From: Ruminococcus sp.
Lineage (GTDB): Bacteria > Bacillota > Clostridia > Oscillospirales > Ruminococcaceae
Assembly: GCA_017450925.1 (NCBI GenBank)
Contig: JAFSSS010000081.1
Span: 82,090-146,089, forward strand
Length of the DNA stretch: 64,000 nt
Reading direction: 5' to 3'
Position numbers and translations under genes: made by a program. Each line of letters starts with the position of its first letter. Position 1 is the stretch's first letter. This document shows, piece after piece, positions 50,763 to 63,024 of this stretch. The notes below the pieces were generated by a model. That model saw nothing but the letters and a program-made list of their open reading frames with translations. It was not told where the DNA came from and ran no database searches.

Positions 50763-51980
50763 TTATTTCTGCCTGTAGTCTGTTAAGAACTCTGCCATTT
50801 TGTCAGTTGCCTCTTTAAGCACCGTAAGCTCGGGCAGATATACGATACGGAAATGATCCGGCTGCTCCCAATGGAAACCGCCGCCGTGAACCAGCAGTAT
50901 CTTTTTGGCTCTTAGCAGGTCAAGGACAAACTGTTCGTCATCCTTGATGTTGAATTTAGCTGCATCTATCTTCGGGAAAATGTAGAAGGCAGCCTTGGGC
51001 TTTACAGCAGAAAGTCCGGGGATAGAATTCATAGCGCTCCAGATATGCTCTCTCTGTTCCCAAACGCGCCCGCCGGGCTGCAGCAGGGGATCGGCGCTGT
51101 TGGCGATCTCCAGCGCAGGCTTGATTATGTACTGCGCTTGAACGTTTGAGCAAAGCCGCATGGAGGAGAGCATATTCAGCCCCTCAATGTAGCCTTTTAC
51201 ACGACTCTTGTCGCCGCTCAATATCATCCAGCCGCAGCGGTAGCCGGCTACCATGTGTGACTTGGAAAGCCCGTTGAAGGTGATGCAGAAAAGATCCGGG
51301 CAAAGCGAAGCGATAGATGTATGCTCAACGCCGTCCATAAGCAGACGGTCATATATCTCGTCAGAGAAGATGATGAGCTCATGCTCTCTTGCCAGCTCGA
51401 CGATCTGCATGAGTATCTCCTTGGGATAAACCGCGCCGGTAGGGTTGTTTGGGTTGATAAGCACGATAGCCTTGGTCTTGTCAGTGATCTTGCGGCGCAT
51501 ATCCTCAATGTCCGGGTTCCAGTCGCTGCGCTCATCGCATATATAATGTATAGCATTGCCTCCCGAAAGAGTAACGGCAGCTGTCCACAGCGGATAGTCG
51601 GGAGCCGGCACAAGTACGTCATCGCCGTTGTTCAGCAGTCCCTGCATTACCATAACGATAAGCTCGGAAACGCCGTTGCCGGTGTAGATGTCGTTCATCC
51701 CCACGCCCTCGATGCCCTTTGAGGCGTGGTACTTGATGATAGCCTCTCTCGCCTCGTCGATGCCCTTGGAATCAGAGTAGCCCTCTGCATTTACAAGGTT
51801 GCTGTTCATTGCATCCAGTATCGCGTCCGGCGTGCGGAAGCCAAAGGGTGTAGGATTTCCGATGTTGAGTTTCAGTATCTTGTCACCGGCGGCTATCATT
51901 TCGTTAGCCGCATCCATGACAGGCCCTCTTATATCATAGCATACGTTATCAAGCTTTGAAGATTTGGAAAAGGTTCTCAA
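50763..51980 (-). CDS. alaA: Pyridoxal-phosphate aminotransferase, AlaA-like
   Basis: About 405 residues, class I fold-type aminotransferase. The opening FSKSSKLDNVCYDIRGPV matches glutamate-pyruvate aminotransferase AlaA. PLP-binding features are INPNNPTGAVYPKE, the IIFSDEIYDRL stretch and the Schiff-base Lys in NGLSKSHMVAGYRCGW. A TTG start is chosen 10 bases after GGAGTG; it gives the standard family N-terminus. It probably makes alanine from pyruvate and glutamate. It is the first gene of a two-gene unit with the cyclophilin. Confidence 0.9.
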   Translation of the reverse strand: MRTFSKSSKLDNVCYDIRGPVMDAANEMIAAGDKILKLNIGNPTPFGFRTPDAILDAMNSNLVNAEGYSDSKGIDEAREAIIKYHASKGIEGVGMNDIYTGNGVSELIVMVMQGLLNNGDDVLVPAPDYPLWTAAVTLSGGNAIHYICDERSDWNPDIEDMRRKITDKTKAIVLINPNNPTGAVYPKEILMQIVELAREHELIIFSDEIYDRLLMDGVEHTSIASLCPDLFCITFNGLSKSHMVAGYRCGWMILSGDKSRVKGYIEGLNMLSSMRLCSNVQAQYIIKPALEIANSADPLLQPGGRVWEQREHIWSAMNSIPGLSAVKPKAAFYIFPKIDAAKFNIKDDEQFVLDLLRAKKILLVHGGGFHWEQPDHFRIVYLPELTVLKEATDKMAEFLTDYRQK

Positions 51981-52024
51981 ATTAAACACTCCAATCAGAA
52001 TAATAAGGAAATACGCTAAATTAC

Positions 52025-52053
52025 ATTTTATCATACTTGTTTCAAAAATGCAA
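52025..52053 (-). promoter_or_regulatory. Sigma-A promoter of aminotransferase gene
   Basis: On the minus strand TTGCAT and TAAAAT are separated by 17 bases, about 45 bases before the TTG start. Confidence 0.75.
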
Positions 52054-52132
52054 GACCGGAACCGACAAATTGCAAAATTAGCCTTTTTAAACAAAAACAG
52101 CAGTCCATATACAGAAATTTTTGCTGCTGCTA

Positions 52133-52189: not shown

Positions 52190-53353
52190 ATGAAAGACAT
52201 TACCATTTCACAGAATGTAGTTTATATCGGTGTTGACGATAAGGACATCGACCTGTTTGAGAGCCAGTACGATGTTCCCAACGGCATGGCCTATAATTCC
52301 TATGTTATCCTTGACGATAAGATCGCAGTAATGGATACTGCTGACCACCGCGTTACCGACATCTGGCTGGATAATCTGAAATCAGCCCTCGGCGGCAGAA
52401 GGCCCGATTATCTGATCGTGGATCACGTTGAGCCCGACCATTCCGGCAGCATTGCAGCGCTGCTTGAGCTGTATCCCGAGACCACGCTCGTAGGAAATGC
52501 CAAGACCTTTGCGTTTCTCGGACAGTTCTATCCCGCGATGAATGCGGCAAACACCTTGACCGTCAAGGAGGGTGATACGCTCACTCTCGGCAGTCATACT
52601 CTGAAATTCTTCATGGCTCCCATGGTACACTGGCCGGAGGTAATGGTCAGCTTTGAGGAGAGCGAGGGGCTGCTTTTCTCTGCCGATGCCTTCGGCAAGT
52701 TCGGAACGCTCGATACCGATGAGGACTGGGCCTGCGAGGCAAGACGTTATTACTTCAATATCTGCGGCAAGTACGGTGTGCAGGTACAGGCTCTGCTGAA
52801 AAAGGCTGCCGCGCTTGATATCAAAATGATACTCCCTCTTCACGGACCGCTGCTGAAGGAAAACCTTTCCTATTATATCGGACTGTATGACACCTGGTCT
52901 AAGTATGAACCCGAGAACAAGGGCATTTTTATAGCCTGCTCCTCTATCCACGGCAACACCCTCAAGGCTGCCGAAAGGCTGAAGGAGATGCTTGAAGCAA
53001 GAGGCGCTGAAAAGGTGTCCCTCTCCGACCTTACCCGTGACGATCTTGCCGAGGGCATTGAGGATGCTTTCCGCTATGACAGGCTCGTGCTTATGTCCTC
53101 GTCCTATGACGGCGGCGTTTTCCCGGTCATGGAGGATTTCCTGTGCCACCTCCGCGCCAAGACCTATCAGAACCGCAAGGTGGCTATAGTTGAGAACGGA
53201 AGCTGGGCTCCCTCTGCCGGAAGAGTCATCAAGGGCTATTTGGAGCAGATGAAGAACATAACTATCGTTGAGCCAATGGTGACATTAAAGTCTGCTCTCA
53301 ACGCCGAAAGCGAAGCCAAGCTGGCAGAGCTTGCGGATGCACTTACAAAGTAG
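52190..53353 (+). CDS. A-type flavodiiron protein (FprA family)
   Basis: A 387-residue flavoprotein that reduces oxygen to water (or nitric oxide to N2O) in anaerobes. The N-terminal metallo-beta-lactamase-like domain holds the diiron ligands HVEPDHSG (H-x-E-x-D-H), HWPEVM, SADAFGKFG and LPLHGPLL; the C-terminal flavodoxin domain starts near 250 with FIACSSIHGNTLKAAERL. Both domains look complete. It has its own promoter and probably protects against oxygen. A hairpin separates it from apbE downstream. Confidence 0.95.
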   Translation: MKDITISQNVVYIGVDDKDIDLFESQYDVPNGMAYNSYVILDDKIAVMDTADHRVTDIWLDNLKSALGGRRPDYLIVDHVEPDHSGSIAALLELYPETTLVGNAKTFAFLGQFYPAMNAANTLTVKEGDTLTLGSHTLKFFMAPMVHWPEVMVSFEESEGLLFSADAFGKFGTLDTDEDWACEARRYYFNICGKYGVQVQALLKKAAALDIKMILPLHGPLLKENLSYYIGLYDTWSKYEPENKGIFIACSSIHGNTLKAAERLKEMLEARGAEKVSLSDLTRDDLAEGIEDAFRYDRLVLMSSSYDGGVFPVMEDFLCHLRAKTYQNRKVAIVENGSWAPSAGRVIKGYLEQMKNITIVEPMVTLKSALNAESEAKLAELADALTK

Positions 53354-55483: not shown

Positions 55484-56566
55484 GTGCAGAAAGCGTACTT
55501 GATTCTTGAAAACGGTACGATCTTTGAGGGCAAAAGCTTCGGTGCTTCCGGAGAAGCTGTCGGCGAGATCGTGTTCACAACGTCGATGACAGGATATGTT
55601 GAAACGCTCACCGATCCGAGTTACTACGGTCAGATCGTTGTGCAGACATTTCCGCTTATCGGAAATTACGGTGTGATGAAAGATGATTTTCAGAGTGACC
55701 GTCCGCAGGTAAAGGCTTATATTGTCAGAGAATGGTGTCAGGAGCCCAGCAATTTCCGTTGTGAGGGTGATCTTGACACTTTTTTAAAGGAAAACAATAT
55801 CGTCGGCCTTTACGGTATAGATACCAGACAGCTGACAAAGATCGTCCGCGAGTCGGGAGTTATGAACGGCAAGATAGTCTGTGAGGGCTCCGGCTTCAGC
55901 TTTGATGACCTTAAGAACTACAGGATCACCGATGCCGTTAAGAACACCACCTGTGATAAGGAATATACCCTCGAGCCCGAGGGCGAGATCAAGAGAAGGA
56001 TAGTTCTTTATGACTTCGGCACAAAGCGGAGCATCGCACGCCAGCTTCTCAAGAGGGGCTGTGAGGTCGTTGTGGTACCGGCATTTACCAGCGCCGAGCG
56101 TGTAGCAGAGCTTGCTCCTGACGGCATCATGCTTTCCAACGGCCCCGGAGATCCCGCCGAGAATACCGACATCATCGCCGAGCTTAAAAAGCTGATCGAA
56201 AAGGATATCCCCACTTTCGCTATCTGCCTCGGTCATCAGCTTTATGCGCTGGCGCACGGCGCTAAGACCGAAAAGCTCAAATACGGCCACAGAGGTGCGA
56301 ACCAGCCTGTCACCGATACCGAGACCGGCAGAGTGTATATCACGAGCCAGAACCACGGCTATGCAGTGGTCAACGACTCTCTCGGCGAGTATGCTAAGGT
56401 CTCCTTTGTGAATACCAACGACGGTACCTGCGAGGGTGTTAAGTATGTTAACGAAAAGGCTTTTTCGGTGCAGTTCCACCCGGAGGCCTGCGGAGGTCCC
56501 AAGGATCCGGGCTTCCTCTTTGACAGGTTCGTTGAGATGATAGACAGTAACAGGAAGGGAGTGTAA
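55484..56566 (+). CDS. carA: Carbamoyl-phosphate synthase small subunit (glutaminase)
   Basis: A 360-residue CarA that takes ammonia from glutamine for CarB. The N-terminal domain includes GEIVFTTSMTGYVETLTDPS and GLYGIDTRQLTKIVRE; the class I glutaminase domain has GPGDPAEN, the nucleophile C248 in AICLGHQL, and the HPE triad end (QFHPEACGG). The GTG start follows AGGAGG. It lies 3 bases before the carB frame. In clostridia this enzyme serves pyrimidine and arginine synthesis. Confidence 0.96.
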   Translation: MQKAYLILENGTIFEGKSFGASGEAVGEIVFTTSMTGYVETLTDPSYYGQIVVQTFPLIGNYGVMKDDFQSDRPQVKAYIVREWCQEPSNFRCEGDLDTFLKENNIVGLYGIDTRQLTKIVRESGVMNGKIVCEGSGFSFDDLKNYRITDAVKNTTCDKEYTLEPEGEIKRRIVLYDFGTKRSIARQLLKRGCEVVVVPAFTSAERVAELAPDGIMLSNGPGDPAENTDIIAELKKLIEKDIPTFAICLGHQLYALAHGAKTEKLKYGHRGANQPVTDTETGRVYITSQNHGYAVVNDSLGEYAKVSFVNTNDGTCEGVKYVNEKAFSVQFHPEACGGPKDPGFLFDRFVEMIDSNRKGV

Positions 56567-56569
56567 CTT

Positions 56570-59500
56570 ATGCCGCTGAATAAAGATATCAAGCGAGTTC
56601 TCGTTATCGGTTCCGGCCCTATCGTTATCGGACAGGCTGCCGAGTTCGACTATGCGGGAACGCAGGCTTGCCGCGCATTGAAGGAAGAGGGCCTTGAGGT
56701 AATACTTATCAACTCCAATCCTGCAACTATCATGACAGATAAGGCTATGGCCGATAAGATATATATCGAGCCGCTTACTCTGGAAACTGTAAAGAGAGTA
56801 ATAAAGAAGGAGCGCCCCGACAGCGTACTTTCCACTCTCGGCGGTCAGACAGGTCTGACCCTTTCCATGCAGCTGGCAAAGTCCGGCTTTCTGGATAAGT
56901 ATAATGTAAAGCTGCTGGGCGCCAAGCCACTTACCATAGATAAGGCCGAGGACAGACAGATGTTCAAGGATACTATGGAGGCTATCGGTCAGCCGTGTAT
57001 TCCCTCTACTGTTGTTAATACTGTTGAGGACGCAGTCGCCTTTGCCAACAGCGAGGGCGTGGGCTATCCGCTTATAATCCGTCCTGCCTTCACACTGGGC
57101 GGCACCGGCGGCGGTATCGTTCACAACGAGGAGGAGCTGCGCGAGATCGCCGGGAACGGCTTGTATCTCTCGCCTATCACACAGGTGCTGGTAGAGAAGT
57201 GCGTTTCGGGCTGGAAGGAGATCGAGTTCGAGGTAATGCGTGACTCCGCCGGAAATGTCATCACTATCTGCTCTATGGAGAACGTTGACCCCGTCGGCGT
57301 GCATACCGGTGACTCTATCGTTGTTGCCCCCTGCGTAACTCTTGCGGATAAGGAGTTCCAGATGCTCCGTACCGCGGCTATAAGGATCGTTGATGCCCTT
57401 GAGGTCGAGGGCGGCTGCAACTGCCAGTTTGCCCTGAAGCCCGACAGCTTTGAATATGCTGTTATCGAGGTCAATCCCCGTGTATCACGTTCCTCGGCGC
57501 TGGCCTCCAAGGCAACAGGCTATCCTATCGCAAAGGTCGCAACAAAGATCGCTATCGGCTACAGGCTCGATGAGATAATCAATGCCGTAACAGGCAAGAC
57601 CTATGCCTGCTTTGAGCCCTCTATCGACTATATCGTTGTCAAGCTGCCCAAGTGGCCGTTCGATAAATTTGTTTATGCCAAGCGTGAGCTGGGTACTCAA
57701 ATGAAGGCTACCGGCGAGGTGATGTCTATCGGTACGTCCTTCGAGCAGGCTATGATGAAGGCTGTAAGAGGTGCCGAGATCGGTCATGACAGCCTCCGTT
57801 CGCCCAAGCTGTTCGGCCTTTCTGATGACGAGATCAGACAGAAGCTCCATAACTGCGACGATGAAAGACTCTTCGTCGTGTATGAGGCTCTTCGCCGCGG
57901 CGTTACCCCCGAGGAGATATTTGATATCACCAAGATCGACAAGTGGTTCACCTATAAGCTGCTGAACCTTGTTAAGCTGGAAAATCAGCTTGAAACAGGC
58001 GATACCTCCTTTGAGCTGTATCATCAAGCCAAGAAAATGGGATTCCCCGATAAGGTCATCGAAAAGCTCACAGGCAAGCCAGTTGAAAAGCCGCTCCATG
58101 CTGTTTATAAAATGGTCGATACCTGCGCTGCCGAGTTCGCCGCCCAGACCCCTTACTTCTATTCCACCTATGACAGTGAGGACGAGGCCGAGGAGTTCAT
58201 CAAGAGCGTCCACACCGGGAACAGGACCGTTATCGTGTTCGGCTCCGGTCCTATCCGTATCGGACAGGGCATCGAGTTCGACTATGCCTCCGTTCACTGC
58301 GTATGGGCTCTGAAGGAGCGCGGCTTTGACGTTGTCATCGTCAATAATAACCCCGAGACAGTCTCCACTGACTTCGATACCGCTGACAGACTTTATTTCG
58401 AGCCTCTTACCAATGAGGACGTAATGAATATCATCAACATTGAAAAGCCCTACGGCGTTGTTGTTGCCTTCGGCGGTCAGACAGCTATCAAGCTTACCAA
58501 GCACCTTGCAGAGCAGGGCGTCAATATCCTCGGCACACCTCCCGATTCTATCGACGCCGCCGAGGACAGAGAGCGCTTCGATGAGCTGCTCGAGCTCCAC
58601 AAGATCAAGCGTCCTCAGGGCTTCACGGTAATGACCACTGAGGAGGCTCTTGAGGTCGCAAATAAGATCGAGTATCCTGTTCTGATGAGACCCTCCTATG
58701 TTCTCGGCGGACAGAATATGATAATCGCCTTCAATGATGACGATATCAAGGAGTATATGGCTATCATCCTTGCACAGGGCATCGAGAACCCCGTGCTGAT
58801 CGACAAGTATCTTATGGGCCCGGAGCTTGAGGTCGATGCTATCTGTGACGGCGAGGATATCCTTATCCCCGGTATCATGGAGCATATCGAGCGTGCAGGC
58901 ATCCACTCCGGTGACTCTATCGCGGTATATCCCGCATGGAACGTTTCCGATAAGATGATCGAGCGCATAATCGACTGCTCCAAGAAGCTGGCAGTTTCTC
59001 TGAACACAAAGGGTCTTGTTAATATCCAGTACCTTATCTATCAAGACGAGCTTTATGTTATCGAGGTAAACCCCCGTTCTTCAAGAACGATACCTTATAT
59101 CTCCAAGGTAACAGGCGTTCCTATGGTCGATCTTGCAACAAGAGCAATGCTGGGCGAAAAGCTGGCCGACATGGGCTACGGCACAGGGCTCTATCCCAAT
59201 TCGCCTTATGTGGCCGTCAAAGTGCCTGTATTCTCCTTTGCAAAGCTCATCGACGTTGATAATCACCTGGGACCCGAGATGAAATCCACAGGTGAAGTCC
59301 TTGCCGTTGCCTCCAGTTTGGAGGAGTCGCTTTACAAGGGACTTACCGCTGCAGGCTATAAGCTGGGCAGCAAGGGCGGTGTTCTTATCACGGTAAGAGA
59401 CTCTGATAAGCGCGAGATACCCACCACCGCCAAGATGTTCTATGACCTTGGCTTTAAGATCTATGCGACTGCCGGTACCGCCGCTGTTCTTATCGACCAC

Positions 59501-60625
59501 GGTATCCCCTGCGAGAGAGTTGCCAAGATACACGAGGCCGAGGAGAATACGCTGACCCTTATCGAAAGCGGTAAGATCAGCTACGTTATCTCCACCTCCT
59601 CCAAGGGACGTATCCCCACAAGAGACTCGGTCAAGATCAGAAGAAAGACTGTCGAGAGAAATATCCCCTGCTTGACTTCTATAGATACCGCCAACGCTAT
59701 TGCGTCCTCTATCAGGAGCAAGTTCACCGAGGATAATACCGAGATCGTAAACATCAACAATATGCGCACCGAAAAGAAGCGTCTTGACTTCACCAAGATG
59801 CAGGGCTGCGGCAATGACTATATCTACTTCAACTGCTTCGATCAGAAGATAGACAACCCCGAGGGTCTTGCTCTGAAACTGTCTGACAGACACTTCGGCA
59901 TCGGCGCCGACGGCATCATCATGATCGAGCGCTCGGATGTGGCTGCCGGAAGAATGCGTATGTTCAACCTTGACGGCTCCGAAGGCAAGATGTGCGGCAA
60001 CGGCATCCGCTGCGTAGCTAAATTTATGAGAGATAATCAGCTCGTTGACAGTGATGACTTCACCGTTGAAACTCTTAGCGGCATAATGAAGATCAATCTT
60101 ACCCGTCATTACGGCGAGGTGAACGGCGCTACAGTCAATATGGGCAAGGCCGAGCTTGATCCCGAGCGTATCCCCGTTGATCTTCCTGCCGACGAAAACG
60201 GCAGAGTCGTTGACCGTGAGGTGGAGATCGGCGGTGATAAATACAGCATCACCTGCGTCTCAATGGGCAATCCTCACTCTGTTGTGTTCATGAAGAATAT
60301 CGACGATCTTGATATCGAGGAGATCGGCCCCAAATTTGAGCATGACGTTATCTTCCCCGAAAGGGTGAATGCCGAGTTCGTCAAGGTCATCGACGATAAT
60401 ACTCTGAAAATGAGAGTATGGGAGCGCGGCTCCGGCGAGACATGGGCCTGCGGTACAGGCGCCTGCGCTGCAGCAGTGGCAGCTGTCCTCAACGGCTACT
60501 GCAAGAAGGATACAGACATTACAGTCCGTCTCAAGGGCGGCGATCTGATCGTTCGCTATACTGACGACGCAGTCTATATGACCGGCGACGCAGTTACCGT
60601 ATATTCCGGCTCGATCATTGTCTGA
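56570..60625 (+). CDS. carB-dapF: Carbamoyl-phosphate synthase large subunit fused to diaminopimelate epimerase (CarB-DapF)
   Basis: One 1351-residue frame. Residues 1 to about 1064 are a complete CarB: first ATP-grasp half (VLVIGSGPIVIGQAAEFDYA), second half (IVFGSGPIRIGQGIEFDYAS) and C-terminal MGS domain (YDLGFKIYATAGTAAVL). Residues 1065 to 1351 are a complete DapF, which converts LL- to meso-diaminopimelate for lysine and peptidoglycan: LDFTKMQGCGNDYIYF, catalytic C1142 in MCGNGIRC and C1294 in ACGTGACAA. No stop, frameshift or ribosome binding site lies at the junction (about 59762), so it appears to be a real fusion. The normal lengths are about 1065 and 275. Confidence 0.9.
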   Translation: MPLNKDIKRVLVIGSGPIVIGQAAEFDYAGTQACRALKEEGLEVILINSNPATIMTDKAMADKIYIEPLTLETVKRVIKKERPDSVLSTLGGQTGLTLSMQLAKSGFLDKYNVKLLGAKPLTIDKAEDRQMFKDTMEAIGQPCIPSTVVNTVEDAVAFANSEGVGYPLIIRPAFTLGGTGGGIVHNEEELREIAGNGLYLSPITQVLVEKCVSGWKEIEFEVMRDSAGNVITICSMENVDPVGVHTGDSIVVAPCVTLADKEFQMLRTAAIRIVDALEVEGGCNCQFALKPDSFEYAVIEVNPRVSRSSALASKATGYPIAKVATKIAIGYRLDEIINAVTGKTYACFEPSIDYIVVKLPKWPFDKFVYAKRELGTQMKATGEVMSIGTSFEQAMMKAVRGAEIGHDSLRSPKLFGLSDDEIRQKLHNCDDERLFVVYEALRRGVTPEEIFDITKIDKWFTYKLLNLVKLENQLETGDTSFELYHQAKKMGFPDKVIEKLTGKPVEKPLHAVYKMVDTCAAEFAAQTPYFYSTYDSEDEAEEFIKSVHTGNRTVIVFGSGPIRIGQGIEFDYASVHCVWALKERGFDVVIVNNNPETVSTDFDTADRLYFEPLTNEDVMNIINIEKPYGVVVAFGGQTAIKLTKHLAEQGVNILGTPPDSIDAAEDRERFDELLELHKIKRPQGFTVMTTEEALEVANKIEYPVLMRPSYVLGGQNMIIAFNDDDIKEYMAIILAQGIENPVLIDKYLMGPELEVDAICDGEDILIPGIMEHIERAGIHSGDSIAVYPAWNVSDKMIERIIDCSKKLAVSLNTKGLVNIQYLIYQDELYVIEVNPRSSRTIPYISKVTGVPMVDLATRAMLGEKLADMGYGTGLYPNSPYVAVKVPVFSFAKLIDVDNHLGPEMKSTGEVLAVASSLEESLYKGLTAAGYKLGSKGGVLITVRDSDKREIPTTAKMFYDLGFKIYATAGTAAVLIDHGIPCERVAKIHEAEENTLTLIESGKISYVISTSSKGRIPTRDSVKIRRKTVERNIPCLTSIDTANAIASSIRSKFTEDNTEIVNINNMRTEKKRLDFTKMQGCGNDYIYFNCFDQKIDNPEGLALKLSDRHFGIGADGIIMIERSDVAAGRMRMFNLDGSEGKMCGNGIRCVAKFMRDNQLVDSDDFTVETLSGIMKINLTRHYGEVNGATVNMGKAELDPERIPVDLPADENGRVVDREVEIGGDKYSITCVSMGNPHSVVFMKNIDDLDIEEIGPKFEHDVIFPERVNAEFVKVIDDNTLKMRVWERGSGETWACGTGACAAAVAAVLNGYCKKDTDITVRLKGGDLIVRYTDDAVYMTGDAVTVYSGSIIV

Positions 60626-62250: not shown

Positions 62251-62469
62251 TATGACGGAGCAGGGAAAATGCAAAATAAGTCGTAATGTTTAACAAGGTA
62301 TAAGGCTGAACGTGATGATTGACCATAGTCTTAATAGCTGTTATACAAAAATCCGGTTCAGCCTGTAATCATTCTGAAATATTATTCGGCATTTCTCACA
62401 AAGAATGTTTAAAGTACTTGTGACATGTGTATAAAAATATTAAAAGTCGAAAACGTTTTAACAAAAACA

Positions 62470-62498
62470 TTGACATCCGGTCAATTTGATGATATAAT
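62470..62498 (+). promoter_or_regulatory. Consensus sigma-A promoter of prepilin gene
   Basis: TTGACA and TATAAT are separated by 17 bases, about 29 bases before the start codon. A palindromic AAAACGTTTT lies 11 bases upstream. Confidence 0.88.
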
Positions 62499-62526
62499 AA
62501 CGATGGGAAGTGAGGAGGTAATAATT

Positions 62527-63024
62527 ATGAAGTCAAAGCAAAAGGGCTTTACATTGGTCGAGCTGATCGTTGTAATAGCTATAATCGGTATTCTTGCAGC
62601 TATTCTTGTTCCTTCTATCATGGAATATGTCAGAAAGAGCAAGCTCAAGTCTGCCAACATGAATGCCAAAAGCGCCTTTTCGGCACTGAACGCAGCCGCT
62701 ACCGATCTTGCCTGTGACGGCAATATCAGTAACATCGCAAGACACGCACCTGTTGCAGTAACTGCTTTGAGTACAAGTGATGAGCTTGAAGGCGCCTGCA
62801 AGGAGTGTCTTGAAAACAACGGCATCAACTCCGGCTATATCTGCTGGGATGTTAATGCGGAAAAGAAGATCATATGTGCCCAGTGGGCTTCGTCGATGAA
62901 CACAACTGACTATGTCGGTCAGTACCCCAATCCGGCCGAGGATCCAGATACTTCTCTTACTACTCTCGGCACCTTGATAAACAGCGCAAACTGGACAGAT
63001 GCCACAAGACCGGACTTCACATAA
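62527..63024 (+). CDS. Type IV prepilin-like protein
   Basis: About 165 residues. A short basic leader ends in the prepilin peptidase site: [18 protein letters not shown], with cleavage after Gly and the conserved Glu at +5. The hydrophobic helix ([20 protein letters not shown]) and an Ala/Asn-rich, Cys-bearing C-terminal domain follow. It could be a pilin, a pseudopilin or a competence-type minor pilin. No pilus assembly genes (PilB, PilC, PilD) are in the window. The start after GAGGAGGT is chosen. Own consensus promoter; a hairpin follows. Confidence 0.92.

Follow-up and report, generated by a model that had tools for sequence, protein, structure and literature searches.

The stretch of DNA analysed here (the window) comprises 64,000 nucleotides of a Ruminococcus sp. 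draft genome and contains a gene in which carB, encoding the large subunit of carbamoyl-phosphate synthase (CPS), runs without interruption into dapF, encoding diaminopimelate (DAP) epimerase. The parts of this gene, referred to as carB::dapF, are the following.

56570..60625, + strand: carB::dapF, a single open frame of 1351 residues from the ATG at 56570 to the stop at 60625, with no internal stop
56570..59725, + strand: CarB part, residues 1-1052, with two ATP-grasp halves, the oligomerisation domain and the MGS domain
59426..59677, + strand: MGS allosteric domain, residues 953-1036 (Pfam)
59726..59785, + strand: junction, residues 1053-1072, the native CarB C-terminus plus about 7 residues
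59786..60616, + strand: DapF part, residues 1073-1349
59993..59995, + strand: codon of Cys1142, the first catalytic Cys, equivalent to Cys73 of H. influenzae DapF
60449..60451, + strand: codon of Cys1294, the second catalytic Cys, equivalent to Cys217 of DapF

The NCBIfam model PRK05294 (CarB) matched residues 1-1052 over model positions 1-1050 of 1058 with 1502.6 bits (cut-off 599), while TIGR00652 (DapF) matched residues 1073-1349 over positions 2-268 of 270 with 288.2 bits (cut-off 114.65), covering the whole two-lobed DAP epimerase fold. Pfam recognised both CPSase halves, the oligomerisation domain, MGS and DAP_epimerase in the 1351-residue protein. When aligned to E. coli CarB, the 14 positions which we take to be catalytic in that enzyme are identical in the window and in all fused relatives described below (90 of 90). 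The MGS domain of the window contains the Thr and Lys aligned with E. coli Thr977 and Lys993, and a Thr aligned with the ornithine-site residue Thr1042 lies at the end of, or just past, the Pfam match; a section of PMC6245113 assigns these three residues roles in allostery by uridine monophosphate (UMP) or ornithine. In the DapF half, C1142, C1294, H1236 and E1285 correspond to the catalytic Cys pair, His159 and Glu208, the set given in an excerpt of PMC3581254 as Cys73, Cys217, His159 and Glu208. The original prediction, made from the letters of the window, had described a single 1351-residue frame with a complete CarB and a complete DapF carrying both catalytic Cys, and the open reading frame, the family models and the alignment to Cys73 and Cys217 confirm this description.

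Judged by these features, the frame probably yields a single, active bifunctional protein with CPS activity (together with CarA) and DAP epimerase activity. The fused protein and CarA would make carbamoyl phosphate, while the DapF half would separately interconvert LL- and meso-DAP. Because the two pathways share no intermediate, no channelling would be expected, and the gain would consist of a fixed co-production of two nitrogen-consuming biosynthetic steps.

As the window is part of an incomplete draft genome, an assembly or frameshift artefact was considered as the source of the frame. However, the same unbroken frame is present in dozens of genomes and the best 120 database proteins share its domains, which excludes such an artefact for all practical purposes. 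Among the matches listed, those unbroken across the junction come from at least 47 of the 247 genomes in the family and at least 50 of the 393 in the class, and by our own count the fusion is spread over 25 family codes of the class. The search of Ruminococcaceae for this architecture, proposed in the original prediction, thus recovered it widely, and the idea of a one-off without a standard counterpart does not hold. The other CarBs of the family are, among the same matches, mostly unfused and about 1065 residues long. Some fused genomes are assembled in one or two contigs (G113, G051 and G412). A protein search, admitting only chains of 743-2364 residues and scored on the DapF part only, gave 6668 hits among 7992 scored candidates, of which the best 120 all possess CPSase and DAP_epimerase domains. 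Few of these 120 have a named source (Ruminococcus, R. albus, Hominimerdicola, Oscillospiraceae), and the UniRef name of two begins with 'Multifunctional fusion p...'.

The 90 fused sequences counted below are the window and 89 relatives, after removal of the partial or duplicate loci L001, L031-L041, L046, L100 and L101 and of G286, G358, G197, G255 and G415. Some loci are irregular. In G358 (L054), the carB of the fused gene is in two frames, owing to a frameshift or an assembly error, and in the small genomes G243 (C45) and G184 (C49), the CarB match contains in-frame TGA and TAA, with an open frame of 1329 amino acids. The fused gene of G014 (L089, 4967-9013), the 48th match in the family, has an in-frame TAG near residue 211 of the DapF part, and the same genome contains a separate dapF adjoining dapL.

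The original prediction had set the boundary of the two halves at 1064/1065. Both whole halves stand, but in the alignment, the natural C-terminus of unfused CarBs extends to about residue 1063, and DapF begins at about residue 1072. The roughly 7 non-CarB residues of the junction are located where relatives still carry traces of the ribosome site and start codon of dapF. In the sister group, unfused CarBs have ..ELVDITKI or similar as their C-terminus, and fused proteins typically read ..TELVDINxMRxEK-x-KLxFTKM.., in which FTKM is the native start of DapF. In nine of the 90 fused sequences, the linker contains AGGAG or AGGAGG 4-7 bases 5' of an in-frame ATG that marks the former start of dapF, within the codons of 'MRRER', 'MRSEK' and similar. 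Two loci of another CarB lineage, L086 and L088, show an unfused carB-dapF-dapL tandem resembling a pre-fusion operon. In L086, AGGAGG and then the dapF ATG come after the carB stop, the same layout as in the linker relics, while spacing and sequence differ in L088. The position 4-7 bases before the old ATG, together with L086 as a natural example, supports reading these motifs as a putative relic ribosome site, and most simply the linker would be the former dapF ribosome site read through.

These Shine-Dalgarno-like motifs in nine relatives also speak for internal initiation, which would yield a separate DapF besides the fused protein. In the window, however, the linker has neither a ribosome site nor the relic ATG, the old dapF ATG being an AAG codon, and no Shine-Dalgarno-like sequence was found at the junction before the ATG at 59762 (Met1065). 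The original prediction had reported the same for this ATG, and there is no sign that DapF is translated separately; the loss of both elements from the linker argues against it. Moreover, Met is absent from residues 1068-1073 in 71 of the 90 fused sequences. Internal initiation is thus very unlikely.

To place the fusion, 90 fused and 52 unfused CarBs were compared in a quick tree (LG+G4, supported by the Shimodaira-Hasegawa-like approximate likelihood ratio test, SH-aLRT, only), which carries a long-branch warning in a part away from the fused clade and samples unfused CarBs thinly. The 90 fused sequences fall into one clade of 91 rows (SH-aLRT 100), with one unfused row inside, and 20 unfused CarBs of the same family form its sister. 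The sole unfused row, L185 of G406, ends exactly at the linker ('..LVDINH' and a stop), with an argF-cluster gene coming next, which suggests a secondary loss of DapF. One clade with one secondary loss indicates that the fusion probably has a single origin. Two separate fusions were also considered and rejected, as the CarB tree gives one clade. From the operon order and the linker remnants we infer an ancestral carA-carB-dapF-dapL operon in which the carB stop codon would have been lost once, the dapF ribosome site then being read as linker.

Such a stop-codon loss could also have been a neutral accident, with independent halves and co-expression as the only gain, which would be compatible with a bifunctional product. 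The operon order carA-carB-dapF-dapL would explain it, and the lack of a shared intermediate and the lower confidence of the linker point in the same direction; the retention of the fusion across 25 family codes and the single unfused row in the 91-row clade, with unfused CarBs thinly sampled, do not. We regard this explanation as a possible one that falls somewhat short of probable.

The epimerase half varies within the clade. At the position of Cys1142, 55 of the 90 fused sequences have Cys, while 26 have Ala, 6 Gly and 3 Ser, corresponding to 12 changes by parsimony. The second catalytic Cys is retained in 87 of 90, and both are present in all 43 standalone DapFs fetched. In 80 genomes, the first Cys was compared with the other DAP genes. 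Genomes with DapL but no second DapF retain it in 42 cases and lack it in 1; those with both DapL and a second DapF retain it in 1 case and lack it in 20; and those without DapL retain it in 3 cases and lack it in 13. The rule that the Cys is kept where the fused DapF is the only one beside DapL, which was framed after seeing the data, fits 75 of the 80. Its exceptions are the Cys-lost G041, where no other route was found, the Cys-intact G253 with a second DapF, and G000, G049 (DapL broken) and G038, which have an intact first Cys without a DapL over the cut-off; in G038 the DapF is degenerate, with Ser as second Cys. Apart from G041, all 35 Cys-lost genomes contain another DapF or Ddh. Another DapF occurs in 25 of the 35 Cys-lost versus 1 of 55 intact genomes (Fisher 3.5e-13, ignoring kinship). 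After control for kinship with 7 independent pairs, the link had the same direction in 3.9 on average and never the reverse (median p 0.125), and the median p was 0.5 when any other meso-DAP route was considered. The association of another DapF with Cys loss is consistent but not significant after this control.

A scan of named genomes gave, among the matches listed, 80 loci, 74 of them spanning the motif, with Cys in 24 and not in 50; seven loci were read by eye, and the loci may overlap with other sampled genomes. The fused protein of Ruminococcus albus has both Cys, while that of Mobilibacterium timonense has Tyr at the first. All of the best 120 database proteins keep the first Cys, presumably because these are the nearest kin of the window. 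Ser1288 (60431-60433), which follows the ERG motif, is present in at least 95% of Cys-intact copies but in only 11% of Cys-lost ones, which mostly have Asn, and this residue seems to change together with Cys1142.

In the lineages concerned, the DapF half would be free to lose one Cys once a second DapF is present or DapL is gone, and would then be kept as a probably non-catalytic domain. Across the clade, the pattern suggests the repeated retirement of an epimerase domain that is still under selection. The ratio of nonsynonymous to synonymous substitution (dN/dS) of the DapF half is 0.05 between the window and its nearest relative, and both the DapF fold and purifying selection persist in Cys-lost copies; these ratios were obtained pairwise by the Nei-Gojobori method, with dS often near or above 1, and are hence rough.

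The possibility was weighed that the DapF half is mainly non-catalytic, binding DAP or a related diamino acid and modulating CPS, with a dispensable epimerase activity. The DAP pocket columns stand out from all DapF columns (0 of 20000 random sets), but compared with the 73 other columns invariant in intact copies, they are not significantly better kept (0.94 versus 0.88, p 0.21), which weakens pocket conservation as proof of DAP binding. Structure prediction of the fused protein gave no confident packing of MGS against DapF (predicted template modelling score 0.67, predicted local distance difference test of the linker about 70). DapF was lost in G406 and truncated by a stop in G014, which suggests that CarB can do without the DapF domain and speaks against a purely structural need. 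Furthermore, the lineage of the window keeps both Cys, and the rule fitting 75 of 80 genomes speaks for catalysis there. We consider a mainly non-catalytic DapF half unlikely.

On the arginine side of the clade, the MGS residue Lys993 is lost in 19 of 21 sequences and Thr977 kept in 21 of 21; Thr977 is likewise named as crucial for UMP inhibition in a section of PMC6245113. A captured epimerase might repeatedly have become a pseudo-epimerase sensor, in which the pocket and one Cys are kept, the gene joins an arginine operon, the UMP lysine of MGS is lost, and DAP or a like diamino acid sets carbamoyl-phosphate synthesis; this scenario is rather doubtful. More generally, we hypothesise a DAP-sensing or structural role for the Cys-lost DapF half.

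Neither a Ddh nor a further DapF scored over the cut-off in 20 Cys-intact genomes, one of which (G038) has the degenerate DapF. Twelve of these (G162, G229, G143, G074, G040, G164, G231, G339, G249, G583, G605 and G524), two of which belong to the genus of the window, have no second CarB reaching the cut-off either, and each of them possesses DapL. In these 12, one polypeptide is expected to serve both pathways, barring an unsearched route. Among 79 fused genomes, 34 have a second CarB over the cut-off; G129, G203, G066 and G038 each pair a fused CarB with an unfused one from the pyr-operon clade. The genome of the window (66.6% complete) has a single CarB and a single DapF that score over the cut-off.

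Several observations weigh against a bifunctional protein with a simple history. The first Cys is missing in 35 of the 90 fused proteins, so the fusion alone is no proof of epimerase activity, and by their residues these 35 are DapF-fold domains that we do not class as DapF enzymes. The genome of the window has Ddh and neither a DapL over the cut-off nor an adjoining dapL; its DapF half may therefore be spare. Other meso-DAP routes outside the DapF/Ddh search may operate, such as the pyridoxal phosphate-type DapF2, described as an alternative route in part of PMC9026213. In the DapF tree, the fused DapFs are split with weak support rather than forming one group, and the standalone L124, L138 and L140 are nested among them, so that a few fissions, copies or re-fusions may belong to the history of the fused clade. 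The whole line of argument is also weakened by this weak tree, the post hoc rule, the few independent events (p 0.125) and the rough dN/dS.

Upstream of carB::dapF lies the gene for the partner subunit.

55484..56566, + strand: carA, CPS small subunit (NCBIfam PRK12838, 483.8 bits, cut-off 221)

Three bases separate the carA stop from the start codon of carB::dapF, and at 84 of the 89 loci of fused relatives, carA precedes the fused gene on the same strand by no more than 300 bases, at 76 of them by no more than 60. The neighbours in the window are NusG_II, Hpre_diP_synt_I and carA, with a Na+/H+ antiporter gene downstream on the opposite strand. By the neighbouring genes identified, the window copy lies outside a pyr operon, and the gene-order survey found no arg-cluster gene beside it. 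Among the 20 unfused sister CarBs, pyrC is nearby in 18 and pyrF in 18, some also having pyrR, pyrK or pyrD.

In the relatives, the gene order is carA, carB::dapF, (pyrG), dapL. The product of DapL, LL-DAP, is the substrate of DapF. Gene order was classed for 78 loci (47 Cys-intact and 31 Cys-lost, without L082, L095 and L221), with genes called by longest open frame, sometimes antisense, and with names taken from clusters checked on a single member each. Of the 47 Cys-intact loci, 25 have a dapL no more than two genes downstream, compared with 0 of the 31 Cys-lost loci; 23 of these 25 score over the TIGR03542 cut-off in place, that of G049 is broken and that of G271 falls outside that census. 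In the Cys-lost G515, dapL is on the same strand but upstream of carA. Nitrogen-assimilation genes (glnA, a GXGXG-domain protein, an ANTAR response regulator and a flavin adenine dinucleotide-dependent oxidoreductase) lie upstream in 17 of 47 Cys-intact loci, and arg genes (argJ, argB, argD, argF) in 15 of 31 Cys-lost versus 0 of 47 Cys-intact loci. The original prediction had offered co-expression or a regulatory tie between carbamoyl phosphate and wall-precursor supply as the purpose of the fusion. Co-expression is supported by carA upstream and, in many relatives, dapL downstream, while the tie found no backing for the window copy, in which regulatory coupling of CPS and epimerase is possible.

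In comparison with known CarB (TIGR01369/PRK05294; E. coli 1bxr), the fused protein has all domains, the 14 catalytic positions and an adjacent carA, but carries a C-terminal DapF and sits outside the pyr operon of most sister CarBs. It shares the whole fold of DapF (TIGR00652), in the window together with both catalytic Cys and the pocket, but is not free-standing, lacks the DapF start codon, and in 35 of 90 cases has Ala, Gly or Ser as first Cys. The bifunctional DapF/glutamate racemase (NF038284) is likewise a DapF with a double function, but a single-domain enzyme by its 254-position model; with 108.4 bits against a cut-off of 350, the window DapF was rejected as a member. Multidomain CPS of the CAD/CPS1 type also joins CPS to further domains. 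CAD joins successive steps of one pathway, whereas the partner in the window belongs to the lysine/wall pathway. In E. coli DapF-RppH (6d13), the DapF fold also binds another protein, but as separate proteins.

The fusion thus joins two pathways, pyrimidine and lysine/wall synthesis, which to our knowledge meet only at the uridine diphosphate-N-acetylmuramoyl tripeptide (UDP-MurNAc-tripeptide), composed of a pyrimidine nucleotide and meso-DAP. Its linker still displays the old ribosome site in some relatives, and the naturally occurring gradation from seemingly active epimerases to relics lacking the Cys makes the role of the retired domain testable in R. albus and Mobilibacterium timonense. 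Since in some genomes the only DapF is concealed under the database name 'carbamoyl-phosphate synthase large subunit', pathway reconstructions may call such genomes DAP-deficient. No paper on a CarB-DapF fusion was found in the open-access literature searched; in the available part of PMC9026213, on DapF variants, 'fusion' is absent and 'fused' occurs once, for another enzyme.

Three further genes of the window were noted. An aminotransferase (50763-52094) labelled dapL by its cluster is no DapL by NCBIfam. The protein at 52190-53353 is flavodiiron/flavorubredoxin-like (NCBIfam PRK11921, 163 bits, under the cut-off). A small protein is encoded at 62425-63024, with what we take to be a type IV pilin-like motif at its N-terminus.

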